A stretch of DNA of 64,000 nucleotides, taken from positions 895-64,894 of the forward strand of contig CACZZN010000002.1 of assembly GCA_902785705.1 (NCBI GenBank), read 5' to 3'. The notes beneath the pieces were generated by a model, which ran no database searches, had not been told where the DNA came from, and was given only the letters and a program-made list of their open reading frames with translations. The translations under genes and the position numbers were made by a program. Origin of the DNA: an uncultured Veillonellaceae bacterium (lineage in GTDB: Bacteria > Bacillota > Negativicutes > Selenomonadales > Selenomonadaceae). Positions 34,641-39,079 of the stretch are shown in pieces. How positions within the stretch are numbered: the first letter of the stretch is position 1; every line of letters begins with the position of its first letter.

Positions 34641-35321
34641 TTATTCTTCCTCTTCTTTCAGCGCGTTGGCCAGATACGCCATCGACAGCATGGTGAAGAT
34701 AACCGCATGAACACAGCTGATAAAGATACTGAACATCAGCCATACCACCGACGGAATCGGCATCCAGACCGGCATCAGCTTCAGCAGGACGATAATCAGG
34801 ATCTCGCCTGCCAGGATATTGCCGAATAGACGAAAAGCCAGCGTGATCGGCTTCGCGATTTCCTCAATGGCATTGATGATGACAAAGGGCGCAAACGGCT
34901 GGAAGAAATGGGCAATGTAATGCCCTCCCTTGAAGTACAGCCCCAGCACATGCACCATGACAACGATCATCAGCGCCAGCCCCAACGTCGTGTTCAGATC
35001 GTTCGTCGGCGACGCCAGCGTCGGAATGAGTCCCAGCAGGTTGGAAACCAGCAGGAACATGAACAGCGTGACAATGAGCGGCGCCAGCATGCGTCCGCGC
35101 TTTCCCATCATCGCATCGATCTGGCCGTGCAGCCATGTGACAATCATCTCGACGACATTCTGCCAGCCGCTGGGCACCAGCTTCAGGTTGCGCGTTGCCA
35201 GAAAGCCGATCAGGATGACGATCGCCATCGCGAGCCACGTCATGGTCAGGGTCTCCGCATTGAAGGTAAAGCCCCCGACCTGCGTAAAGCCACGATGGAT
35301 GATCCCTTCACTCATAGACAT
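34641..35321 (-). CDS. atpB: ATP synthase a subunit
   Basis: 226 residues, about five or six transmembrane segments. The essential Arg lies in LAFRLFGNILAGEILIIVLL, the best conserved part of the a subunit, with Asn and Glu nearby. It forms the two half-channels against the c ring. The start overlaps the end of atpI by 10 bases. Confidence 0.96.
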   Translation of the reverse strand: MSMSEGIIHRGFTQVGGFTFNAETLTMTWLAMAIVILIGFLATRNLKLVPSGWQNVVEMIVTWLHGQIDAMMGKRGRMLAPLIVTLFMFLLVSNLLGLIPTLASPTNDLNTTLGLALMIVVMVHVLGLYFKGGHYIAHFFQPFAPFVIINAIEEIAKPITLAFRLFGNILAGEILIIVLLKLMPVWMPIPSVVWLMFSIFISCVHAVIFTMLSMAYLANALKEEEE

Positions 35322-35758
35322 CTACCTCCTTTCGGTGTTGCTTCGGATTCTTGTACCTGATCCTCGCTCCCTCCTTTATCCTTACTGACACCCCGAAACT
35401 CATCCGTAATCAGATGAACCATGAACAGCAGATAGAACAGCCAAAAACCTGCCACCACCATGCCGAACACCTCTGCCGAGATCCGAACCGCCGCAAACAG
35501 CACGACAAGCAGCACGGCAAGCCGCAGCACAAGACCCCAAAGCATCTCACGCTTTGCGCCCGAGGCGGAAAGCCCCGCGCTTCTCCAGATTCGATACGCC
35601 ATGGTCCACGCATACACAGCTGCCGCAAAGTAGCCGATGAAAAGCGCACCGATGAGATCCGCCCTGCCGTTTGCCGCCAAGGTGATGACCGCCATCAGCG
35701 TCACGACGCCAAGGCTTTTCAACATGCGTTTCACGGATGCCAATAAAATTCCCTTCAT
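35312..35758 (-). CDS. atpI: ATP synthase I-like subunit
   Basis: 148 residues with four hydrophobic segments (GVVTLMAVITLAANG, DLIGALFIGYFAAAVYAW, LVLRLAVLLVVLFAAVRI, MVVAGFWLFYLLFMVHLI). This is the ATP synthase I chain family, thought to assist c-ring assembly. The start is the ATG at 35758 with GAGGAGGA upstream; the 26 codons before it are noncoding. First gene of the core ATP operon; 145 bp upstream begins a different unit. Confidence 0.85.
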   Translation of the reverse strand: MKGILLASVKRMLKSLGVVTLMAVITLAANGRADLIGALFIGYFAAAVYAWTMAYRIWRSAGLSASGAKREMLWGLVLRLAVLLVVLFAAVRISAEVFGMVVAGFWLFYLLFMVHLITDEFRGVSKDKGGSEDQVQESEATPKGGRCL

Positions 35759-35903
35759 ACTCCTCCTCTGGATGCGCACCGGCACACGCCCACGCCCGCA
35801 AGTCAATGCGGACAGGGAAAACAGCCTGCCATACACCCATCTACTTTATTTCGACAGATTTTCTGATTTCCCTTCTAAACGGAATAAATTTCTATCGGCA
35901 AGT

Positions 35904-37586
35904 TCATGCCCAAACAATCTGCTCTGCTTGTGCCACAGTCTCGACGAGCGTGGCCTTGCATTGGGCTGCTTTGCCTTCATCCTTTTTCTTGACATAGTGG
36001 TTCATGAGCCGCATATAGGAAAGAAGTTTTGCGCTCCTTTCAATTTCCTGAAGATGATCCGCCCGGTCTTCAAAATAGAATTTCAGCAGCAGTTCCCAAA
36101 GCCTGTCCGTCAGCTCCGGGGACATGCCCGTGACCATCTTGTGCCGTTTGAAGCCCGTATCATCGAAGCGGCGATAGCCCACGTAGGTCGCATACAGCGC
36201 GGAAAACTCAAAGATGGGCTGCCCCAGCCCCATGCTGTCCATGTCGATGAGGTAGAGCTCCCCATTGCTGTCCACCATGATGTTCTTGGCATGGCAGTCC
36301 CCATGCACCAGATGATCGTCATCCGGCACGGCCTCCAGCATGGCTTTCAGCTTCTCTGCGCAATCGACGGGAAGATATTCCCCGATCCGCCGCAGCCGTC
36401 TCAGCATCCCATCCCTGCAAGGCTCACCGATGGCATGGCTGCCCGCTCCATCAGCAGAAACCTCATGGATGCTTTTCAGAAGCTGCACCATCATTCTCGC
36501 ATATTCCTCGATGCGATCCGGCCGGTCGTGGATCAGCGCCGCCAATGTCTCTGCCTCCAGCATCTCGTACACAGCGCCGAAGCGGTTCCCCAGACGCACG
36601 ATATCATAGGAAATCGCCGTGGGGATGCCCAGCATGAACACCGCCTTTGCCGCCTCCAGTTCCGTCCGTATCTCTTTCAGCGTGAAATTCTCCCGATAGG
36701 CTTTGATCATCGTATCGCCGTCCATGCGATAGATCTCCCCATTGGCGCCCTCGGACAGCTTCGTGCATCCATCCACAGAGAGCCGCCGCATCATCTTTTC
36801 CGTCGGCATCATCTGGGTGAGTCCCGTCATCTCGAAGATTTCATAGGCTTCCGGCGACACATCCACAAAGGCAATGCTTTTCATGCGCTTGGCAAGTGTC
36901 AGAAAGACCCTGAGGCCCATGCTGGAAATATATCTCAGCCCGACCAGATTCAACGAAAGCGGCTTTTCCGGGTGAAGCCCCCGCAATTCATTAATCTGCG
37001 CCTGCACCGACTTTGCATTGGCAGCATCCATTTCCCCCGCCAGATAGATGACCTGTCCCTCCGCGCCGCAATCCGAATACGCAATGCTCTTATCCTTCGG
37101 ATACTCCCGGGGGATCAGCGTCTGATAATAGTGCCAGAACGCCTGATAAGCCATCGGGTCCGAATGGGCGTAGGGCAGACAGCCCACACTCTCATCGTAT
37201 TCCTTCCGTTCCCTGTACTCCGGCAGTCGAAGCCCTTTCCGCATCAGCGCATAGGCAGAGAGCAGCCGCGCCATGCGCTCGCTGCCATCTGCAAAGAAAT
37301 GATCTGCGATATCTGCATGAAACTCGATAAAGCAGGCTGTTTCCCACGGATTGGAGAGCTCGCCGTGAAAGCGCTCCCAAAGTCTCTCACAGAACCACGA
37401 GAACCTTTCGTCATCCTGTACCGGCTTGCTCACGCCCGCTTGTCCCGCCAGCTGCCCGATCCATGCCCGCAGATCCGCCGCGGATGCAAAACTGTGCTCC
37501 CGCATCTCATAGACAAATGGCAGCGCATCCTTGATATTTTCGGAAATTTCCTGCCGATATGCTTCCATTGAAATCTTTTCTTCCAT
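35904..37586 (-). CDS. multidomain protein: Fic-like domain, STAS domain and APH-type kinase domain
   Basis: 560 residues. Residues about 20-130 resemble a Fic domain; HFFADGSERMAR (96-107) fits the HxFx(D/E)GxxRxxR frame of AMPylating enzymes but has Ser-Glu where Asn-Gly is normal, so activity may be changed. Residues 178-260 form a STAS domain (VIYLAGEMDAANAKSVQAQ, then RYISSMGLRVFLTL with the phosphorylatable Ser position). Residues 275-480 are an aminoglycoside-phosphotransferase-like kinase: SEGANGEIYRM loop, Lys295, catalytic HGDCHAKN (428-435) and metal-binding DMD (448-450). Spo0M/RsbV-like partner switching with a built-in kinase is one reading. It lies between atpZ-like and atpI genes. 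Domain calls are by motif. Confidence 0.7.
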   Translation of the reverse strand: MEEKISMEAYRQEISENIKDALPFVYEMREHSFASAADLRAWIGQLAGQAGVSKPVQDDERFSWFCERLWERFHGELSNPWETACFIEFHADIADHFFADGSERMARLLSAYALMRKGLRLPEYRERKEYDESVGCLPYAHSDPMAYQAFWHYYQTLIPREYPKDKSIAYSDCGAEGQVIYLAGEMDAANAKSVQAQINELRGLHPEKPLSLNLVGLRYISSMGLRVFLTLAKRMKSIAFVDVSPEAYEIFEMTGLTQMMPTEKMMRRLSVDGCTKLSEGANGEIYRMDGDTMIKAYRENFTLKEIRTELEAAKAVFMLGIPTAISYDIVRLGNRFGAVYEMLEAETLAALIHDRPDRIEEYARMMVQLLKSIHEVSADGAGSHAIGEPCRDGMLRRLRRIGEYLPVDCAEKLKAMLEAVPDDDHLVHGDCHAKNIMVDSNGELYLIDMDSMGLGQPIFEFSALYATYVGYRRFDDTGFKRHKMVTGMSPELTDRLWELLLKFYFEDRADHLQEIERSAKLLSYMRLMNHYVKKKDEGKAAQCKATLVETVAQAEQIVWA

Positions 37587-37596
37587 AGCCGCTCTC

Positions 37597-37848
37597 CTAT
37601 ACTGTTCCGCTGTGCTTCAACTGGCGGTACAGGCTGTAAATCGCAATGGGGAAGCCCAGCAGTATCCCTGCAAACTTCCCTTTCATCCCCAGCCCTAAGT
37701 GCTCATCCGCCAGATTCCCCAAATACACACAGATGCCAATCACCGCTGCAAGGTAAATGCCGACGCCTGACAGGAAGGAAAAAGCCTTCCAAGTCTGCCG
37801 CAGCCCCTCATGAGAATCTTTTTCTGTTGCATGCTGCTCTTGCTTCAC
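37597..37848 (-). CDS. AtpZ/AtpI-like small membrane protein
   Basis: 83 residues. A charged N-terminus (ATEKDSHEGLRQTWKAFS) and two transmembrane helices (FLSGVGIYLAAVIGICVYL; KFAGILLGFPIAIYSLYRQL). Fits the AtpZ family, which with AtpI forms a c-ring assembly or ion-uptake complex in some bacteria. The start GTG at 37848 is preceded by GAGGTG; a GTG nine bases earlier is also possible. Eleven bases before the STAS/kinase gene. Confidence 0.7.
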   Translation of the reverse strand: MKQEQHATEKDSHEGLRQTWKAFSFLSGVGIYLAAVIGICVYLGNLADEHLGLGMKGKFAGILLGFPIAIYSLYRQLKHSGTV

Positions 37849-37880
37849 CTGCTTCACCTCAATACACAAATACCACAAAA

Positions 37881-37902
37881 GCCGCGGCATCACAACCGCG
37901 GC
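37881..37902 (-). terminator. terminator after wecB
   Basis: GCCGCGG (37881-37887) pairs with CCGCGGC (37896-37902); on the minus strand it is followed by TTTTGTG. It ends the long envelope cluster before the atpZ-like gene. Confidence 0.75.
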
Positions 37903-37915
37903 TGCTGTTTGCGTT

Positions 37916-39079
37916 TTAGCGTGCCATGAACACTTCCGGCCGCTCCTTGGCAAAGCCGAAATGGTAAAGAATGCCCTGAACGATGCGCTCGGATGCCTTG
38001 CCGTCGCCGTAGGGATTGCAGGAACCCGCCATGCGGTCGTACTCTTTTTGATCCGTCAGCAGACGCTTTGCCTCTTCATAGACACGATCCCGTTCCGTCC
38101 CTATGAGCTTGACCGTACCGGCCGCCACGGCTTCCGGACGCTCCGTCGTATCCCGCAGCACCAGAACCGGTTTGCCGAGAGCCGGCGCCTCCTCCTGCAC
38201 CCCACCCGAATCCGTCAGAATCAAATGGGAACGATGCATGAGATTCGCGAAAGGCTCATAGTCCAACGGATCGATCAGATGCACCTTTTCCAGCCCGCCA
38301 AGTTCCTCATTGACCACTTCGCGCACCTTCGGATTCTTATGGACAGGGAACACGATCTCCACATCCTCGAATTCCTCGGTCAGCTGCTTGAGCGCCTTAT
38401 AGACGTGCCGCATAGGCGCACCCAGATTTTCGCGGCGATGCGTCGTCACAAGGATCATGCGCTTTCCCGTGAAATCCAAATCGTGCAGGAAAAAGTTCTC
38501 AAACTCAAAATCATCCCGCACCGTCTGATGCAGCGCATCAATGACCGTATTGCCCGTCACGAAGATCCGCTCTGACGGCACATTCTCCTTCCGAAGATTC
38601 GCCTCGGAAGTATCCGTCGGCGCAAAGTGCAGATCCGCAATCGCCCCGGTGAGCTTGCGGTTCATTTCCTCCGGAAAAGGCGAATACTTGTTGCCGGTCC
38701 GAAGTCCTGCCTCCACATGCCCTACCGCAATCTGATGATAATAGGCCGCCAGCGCCCCCGCAAAGGTGGTTGTCGTATCGCCATGCACCAGCACAATATC
38801 CGGCTGCTCCTGCGCCAGGACCTCATCCAGGCCGTTCATCGCCCTGCTGGTAATATCGAAGAGCGTCTGCCCTGCCGCCATGATGTCCAGATCATAGTCA
38901 GGGTGAATGTGAAAGAGATGCAGCACCTGATCCAGCATCTCCCTATGCTGGGCGGTCACTGCAACGACGGGAAGGATGGCATCCGGATGCTTTTGCAGTT
39001 CCAGCACGACAGGCGCCATCTTGATTGCCTCGGGACGCGTCCCGAATACCGTCATGACCTTGATTTTCTTGTTACCCAT
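37916..39079 (-). CDS. wecB: UDP-N-acetylglucosamine 2-epimerase (non-hydrolysing)
   Basis: 387 residues. Signature residues of WecB/MnaA: KVMTVFGTRPEAIKMAPVV at the N-terminus, VHGDTTTTFAGALAAYY, VGHVEAGLRTG, and TDSGGVQEEAPALGKPVLVLRD near residue 290. It interconverts UDP-GlcNAc and UDP-ManNAc for surface polysaccharide. Follows the tagO/wecA-like gene in the same unit, which supports a joint role in polysaccharide linkage units. Confidence 0.96.
   Translation of the reverse strand: MGNKKIKVMTVFGTRPEAIKMAPVVLELQKHPDAILPVVAVTAQHREMLDQVLHLFHIHPDYDLDIMAAGQTLFDITSRAMNGLDEVLAQEQPDIVLVHGDTTTTFAGALAAYYHQIAVGHVEAGLRTGNKYSPFPEEMNRKLTGAIADLHFAPTDTSEANLRKENVPSERIFVTGNTVIDALHQTVRDDFEFENFFLHDLDFTGKRMILVTTHRRENLGAPMRHVYKALKQLTEEFEDVEIVFPVHKNPKVREVVNEELGGLEKVHLIDPLDYEPFANLMHRSHLILTDSGGVQEEAPALGKPVLVLRDTTERPEAVAAGTVKLIGTERDRVYEEAKRLLTDQKEYDRMAGSCNPYGDGKASERIVQGILYHFGFAKERPEVFMAR

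Follow-up and report, generated by a model that had tools for sequence, protein, structure and literature searches.

Gene and genomic context

The window, a stretch of 64,000 nucleotides from contig CACZZN010000002.1 of an uncultured Veillonellaceae bacterium, carries on its minus strand a gene for a protein of 560 amino acids (35904..37586) with an ATG start, whose product combines Fic-like, STAS and APH-type kinase parts according to the open reading frame list and Pfam. The genome is a draft of 82% completeness. Residues 1-172 score positively for coding in their own frame only (+0.15 bits/codon), and the five other frames are negative. An antisense open frame of 644 amino acids (35637-37571, plus strand) covers nearly the whole gene; it is probably a by-product of the gene, because the antisense frames have poorer codon-usage scores than the sense frame.

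The gene order on this strand is wecB, atpZ, the STAS-kinase gene, atpI, atpB, E, F, H and A, where all names other than atpZ are assigned from the sequences. Directly upstream is atpZ (37597..37953, minus; PF09527 ATPase_gene1, 1.3e-8), listed here by its open reading frame, within which its true start probably falls. Directly downstream, atpI is listed at 35312..35836 (minus), with the ATG at 35758, after AGGAGGAG, as its likely start. The first-pass annotation had linked the gene to the ATP synthase operon, and this association is closer than proximity: with atpZ upstream and atpI to atpA downstream on the same strand, the gene lies inside the operon and does not merely adjoin it. By inspection of the sequence, its ribosome-binding site, AGGAGA, overlaps the atpZ stop codon. 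Between atpZ and atpI the scan, which performed near chance level, found no strong promoter or terminator signal and no hairpin on this strand. A terminator-like hairpin was found between wecB and atpZ (37880..37903, minus; promoter/terminator scan), although the evidence for hairpins is weak because six were found versus 3.6 +/- 2.1 in shuffles. Given that the gene has landed in the atp operon, its co-expression with ATP synthase is likely.

The position is not shared by relatives. In a survey of atpB loci, 59 of 60 genomes were matched and the best 30 loci were used. At 14 of these the interval between atpZ and atpI is 28-573 nt, measured to an over-long atpI start, which leaves no room for a STAS-kinase gene. 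The other 16 comprise the window's own locus and 15 that gave no gap reading in a short stretch; when nine of the 15 were extended, eight were without atpZ and one (G002) had a different open reading frame between atpZ and atpI (L175:3097-4194, minus, 365 aa, no Pfam match), so more than one gene has been inserted at this site. In the eight relatives with no atpZ found beside atpI (L170-L174, L176-L178), varied genes precede atpI. The first-pass annotation had proposed from the position that the protein could regulate energy metabolism. The position was rejected as evidence for this, as the atp location is found in this genome only, among the genomes checked. Since relatives do not share the location, involvement in energy metabolism is unproven, and a functional tie of the gene to ATP synthase is possible.

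The N-terminal domain appears to be derived from Fic

Residues 1-172 (37071..37586, minus) appear to descend from a Fic domain, and the resemblance is weaker than that of the STAS and kinase parts, yet beyond what shuffled sequences give. Fic proteins have the motif HxFx[DE]GN[GK]R with an invariant His, and those without the conserved residues may be inactive or have other functions, according to PMC4454073. In a 35-row alignment, the degenerate motif HFFADGSERMAR (residues 96-107; 37266..37301, minus) keeps His96, Phe98, Asp100, Gly101, Arg104 and Arg107, as well as Tyr130 beyond it, and has Phe for Pro97, Ser for Asn102 and Glu for Gly103. The segment HFFADGSER therefore departs from the canonical pattern, with the His kept and the Asn and Gly changed. 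The protein is thus like Fic/DOC (PF02661) in the H, F, D, G, R and R of the motif and in the surrounding helices, and unlike it in the Asn-Gly to Ser-Glu and Pro to Phe changes and in the absence of the flap Gly. With GNG changed to GSE in this loop, an active AMPylation domain is unlikely; the N-terminus is probably a Fic that is altered or non-catalytic, rather than an AMPylator, and its active site has probably lost the usual mode of nucleotide binding.

The Fic assignment has to be weighed against a reading of these 170 residues as a helical domain unrelated to Fic, with a chance motif as the source of the resemblance. PF02661 scores below its 24-bit gathering cut-off, both for the whole protein (14.2 bits, E 0.083) and for the N-terminal part alone (15.5 bits for residues 1-173, E 0.032), as a chance motif would allow. 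Against this, the N-terminus is matched by PHROG 11900 (E 3.4e-4), an unnamed family that ranks first among the matches of two true Fics and second for a third. A profile of 37 Fic proteins gave 17.4 bits, where the best of 10,000 shuffles reached 8.5 and the best of 692 neighbor proteins only 6.7. Alignment to Fic with hhalign (91.9%) scored 44.0, compared to a maximum of 26.7 in 400 shuffles. Masking the 12 residues of the motif lowered this score to 13.4, a value that 111 of 400 shuffles reached, without changing the alignment register; the Fic motif alone scored 24.3. This fall into the shuffle range indicates that the Fic evidence comes in large part from the motif as it stands in its context, and it counts in favor of a chance motif.

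The resemblance extends upstream of the motif. The alignment to a Fic protein of the same bacterial family (L210) starts at residue 31, where Fics carry the flap. Taken by itself, the segment before the motif outscores 4969 of 5000 shuffles (all but 31), and the segment after it does not stand out, as 979 of 5000 shuffles score as high; L210 was chosen as the best match among 380 genomes, so the comparison is not unbiased. Searches with the N-terminus found only the protein itself in 189 family genomes (E 0.001), three weak others in 398 phylum genomes (two of them Fic), seven in 380 class genomes (two Fic and five not), and one, a Fic, in the five genomes of loci L031-L035. Altogether, true Fics whose alignment covers the motif make up five of the 11 weak non-self matches, which also argues against coincidence. 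Among plasmids there were five records at E 1-5, four annotated as Fic family protein and the fifth unannotated. Viral contigs gave none, phages gave one unrelated match, and the PDB sequence search returned one chance-level row only.

Structure prediction, for which the first-pass annotation had named a fold unrelated to Fic as a refuting outcome, did not go against a Fic fold. The model built without an alignment (pLDDT 58) was poor and uninformative, with no Fic among the fold-search matches listed, which would also suit an unrelated domain. The model built from an alignment of 34 Fic rows reached pLDDT 75, and all 50 matches listed per search were Fic/Doc-type folds, with a Z of up to 11.6 to VIA over 154 residues at 4.0 A; because the Fic alignment steers the model, this indicates compatibility only. 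Taking these results together, we regard a chance motif as the least probable of the readings considered here. The first-pass description of a Fic frame with Asn-Gly replaced by Ser-Glu is borne out by the motif alignment and the Fic profile tests.

STAS and kinase regions

The rest of the protein was assigned with matches far beyond chance, as judged from profile scores. The STAS domain occupies residues 179-263 (36798..37052, minus; PF01740, 2.6e-12, 46.9 bits versus a cut-off of 22.6). SpoIIAA structures are its best solved relatives by phmmer, and in the alignment Ser222 (36921..36923, minus), within YISSMGLR (residues 219-226), is the equivalent of the acceptor serine that is phosphorylated in SpoIIAA. 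The APH/choline-kinase-like region covers residues 274-560 (35907..36767, minus), including K295 and D448, with PF01636 matching residues 295-467 (1.6e-16, 61.2 bits versus a cut-off of 23.2). The HGDxxxxN and hDxD kinase motifs are intact, as HGDCHAKN (428-435) and LIDMDS (446-451). The nearest NCBI family for this region is TIGR02172, a Fibrobacter succinogenes paralogous family (3.9e-31), although at 108.6 bits against a curated cut-off of 228.2 the protein is not a member by that model, and unlike that family it also carries STAS and Fic-like parts.

The cell-cycle kinase CcrZ, which is not known to have a STAS or Fic part, shares the APH/choline-kinase-like motif region, with its model NF046102 matching at 3.2e-6 and 26.8 bits, far under the cut-off of 400. 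PMC9135335 presents CcrZ as a kinase of the APH/choline-kinase-like kind used in regulation. That the nearest kinase families are phosphotransferases, with CcrZ a weak relative, would fit a metabolic or small-molecule kinase, comparable to CcrZ acting on ribose, to choline kinase or to APH, in which the STAS and Fic-like parts merely bind or position and no partner switch is involved. The conservation of the acceptor position argues against this, as Ser222 is Ser in 42 of the 44 other family rows with a STAS domain, and a STAS domain that merely binds needs no such serine.

Kinase residues are conserved more strictly still in the same deduplicated set, counted after exclusion of L140, which is a fragment of the window's gene. 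K295 is invariant in all 50 other rows, and His428, Asp430, Asn435 and Asp448 in all 49 that reach them. The eight closest rows are 37-40% identical to this protein. The earlier claims of a STAS domain with a phosphorylatable Ser position and of an intact APH-type kinase are thus upheld, and homologs with broken kinase motifs, which would have counted against the latter, were not what the family showed. Conservation across the family had been proposed as a check for HFFADG and HGDCHAKN alike; it holds for HGDCHAKN through His428, Asp430 and Asn435.

Distribution and origin of the STAS-kinase family

The STAS-kinase family was found in Selenomonadaceae paralogs, in rumen Lachnospiraceae and Ruminococcus drafts, and in other Bacillota. 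In a whole-protein search of 397 Lachnospiraceae-type genomes, the family of the genome (G615) that is home to L033, a Lachnospiraceae record, 156 matched at 1e-5 with at most three candidates scored per genome; many of these matches are kinase-only or STAS-only, and among the matches listed none starts before residue 141. No second genome among those searched has the Fic-like part fused to a STAS-kinase, so the order Fic-like, STAS and kinase occurs in this genome only, among the genomes searched. The first-pass annotation knew of no described protein with this order, and our search of the open literature likewise found no paper on one.

In the kinase tree, which included L140, the window's gene groups with clostridial rows, apart from the other Selenomonadaceae. 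A constraint that grouped it with the two nearest rows from Selenomonadaceae was rejected (p 0.016), although the gene is a long branch and the tested group was picked with the tree already in view. Most simply, a STAS-kinase gene would have come in, acquired the Fic part and settled at a permissive site in the atp operon.

Clostridial relatives, for which no family name was found, share the STAS-kinase core at up to 39.5% identity, and unlike the window protein have a C-terminal HATPase or an N-terminal HD_4 domain instead of the Fic-like part. The SpoT/Mesh1-like HD_4 domain takes the place of STAS on this kinase at L059:1414-2910 (minus) and L060:1405-2883 (minus), with Pfam used for L059.

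Partner-switch genes accompany STAS-kinase relatives

Neighborhoods were examined at 36 clostridial STAS-kinase loci, which are the best-scoring ones and not a random sample, and at seven Selenomonadaceae loci; L033 and L099 are one place, counted once. Proteins of these very neighborhoods served as the training set for the marker profiles. At 20 of the 36 clostridial loci an RsbW-type HATPase, a SpoIIE-type phosphatase or a single STAS is fused to the STAS-kinase or lies within 3 kb. Counted separately, on the same terms, HATPases occur at 16 loci, SpoIIE-type PP2C proteins at 13 and single STAS proteins at 10; the remaining 16 of 36 loci have none of these neighbors. STAS-kinase-HATPase fusions were seen at seven loci, and HD_4 proteins also at seven, including as a stand-alone gene adjoining the STAS-kinase. 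One operon (L062) runs HATPase, HD_4, STAS-kinase, HATPase. Marker open reading frames number 36 within 3 kb (0.18/kb) versus 4 beyond (0.012/kb), which is about 15 times denser near the gene, and Pfam confirms the SpoIIE and HATPase_c_2 assignments in examples. Such clustering also weighs against a purely metabolic kinase, as a STAS domain serving only for binding has no need of these genes.

At the window's own locus (L139), by comparison, no HATPase or PP2C was matched in the 20 kb around the gene, and none of the seven Selenomonadaceae loci has either as a neighbor at the same strict threshold. The lack of a switch partner near the gene would be expected of a metabolic kinase, and this reading, set against the conserved serine and the clustering in relatives, strikes us as possible though doubtful. 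Elsewhere in the same genome, adjacent genes for a single STAS and an RsbW-like HATPase are found (L137:9943-10784, minus; G000 contig 10), and this pair is a candidate partner for the window protein's STAS domain.

The first-pass annotation had drawn attention to a protein that combines a partner-switching domain with a kinase of its own and could regulate energy metabolism. In the fullest form of that proposal, the protein is a self-contained regulator whose kinase phosphorylates the STAS Ser and whose altered Fic is still active, and which tunes ATP synthase or energy metabolism. Translation coupled to atpZ, the intact kinase motifs and the retention of the Fic His, Asp and both Arg would be consistent with this. 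The replacement of the Fic loop's GNG by GSE and the uniqueness of the operon position among the genomes checked speak against it, and a kinase acting on its own STAS domain is not necessary, as separate RsbW-type kinases and PP2C phosphatases accompany relatives. We consider such a self-contained regulator very unlikely.

A proposed partner-switch model

A partner switch is the best reading, because switch genes accompany STAS-kinase relatives and the window's own genome has a STAS and HATPase pair. We put at about even the chances that the protein is the output arm, or effector, of such a switch, with the STAS domain regulating the attached kinase. The open reading frame, its domains, the conserved residues, the operon position and the neighborhood association in relatives are observed; from these we infer the catalytic and regulatory steps as follows. 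The protein would be a cytoplasmic signaling protein of a recurring STAS-plus-kinase family in Clostridia and Negativicutes. An RsbW-type HATPase kinase encoded elsewhere in the genome would phosphorylate Ser222, and a SpoIIE-type PP2C phosphatase would remove the phosphate. The state of the STAS domain would then set partner binding and the activity of the attached APH/choline-kinase-like domain, the substrate of which could be a small molecule or a protein. The Fic domain, with the Asn-Gly of its anion-binding loop lost, may now serve in binding or dimerization and not in AMPylation. Insertion between atpZ and atpI would have brought the gene into the atp operon, so that its product would be made together with ATP synthase.

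The closest known system is that of RsbV/SpoIIAA with RsbW/SpoIIAB and SpoIIE/RsbU. The window protein resembles it in its STAS sequence, in the acceptor Ser at the SpoIIAA position, and in that HATPase and SpoIIE-type phosphatase genes adjoin STAS-kinase relatives. It differs in that its STAS domain is fused to an APH-type kinase, with no known sigma factor output and no partner genes local to the gene. A broader proposal is that STAS proteins with their own APH-type kinase make up a branch of partner switching that is so far undescribed and widespread among Clostridia and Negativicutes, whose output is phosphorylation of a substrate, perhaps a small molecule, and not sigma-factor release, and that here a dead Fic acts as a sensor or docking part in a protein built into the atp operon, tying output to energy status. 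In this full form, we consider the proposal unlikely.

The association of the STAS-kinase family with partner-switch genes is the more general result. In the open literature, no paper was found on STAS-kinase proteins as a partner-switch component, nor were experiments on any family member. The combination of STAS-kinases with HATPase and SpoIIE-type neighbors suggests that in Clostridia of the rumen and gut a kinase can be under the direct control of partner switches, and in the window protein the switch Ser, the kinase and the Fic remnant could be mutated separately within a single molecule.

MATE-type transporters with a C-terminal RsbW-like HATPase were also identified by Pfam (L042:10561-12303, plus; L047:1949-3751, plus), the latter in the window's own genome. 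In Selenomonadaceae, such genes directly follow STAS-kinase or kinase genes, and their HATPase matches are weak. Some of them are followed in turn by a gene of approximately 860-890 amino acids of no recognized kind.
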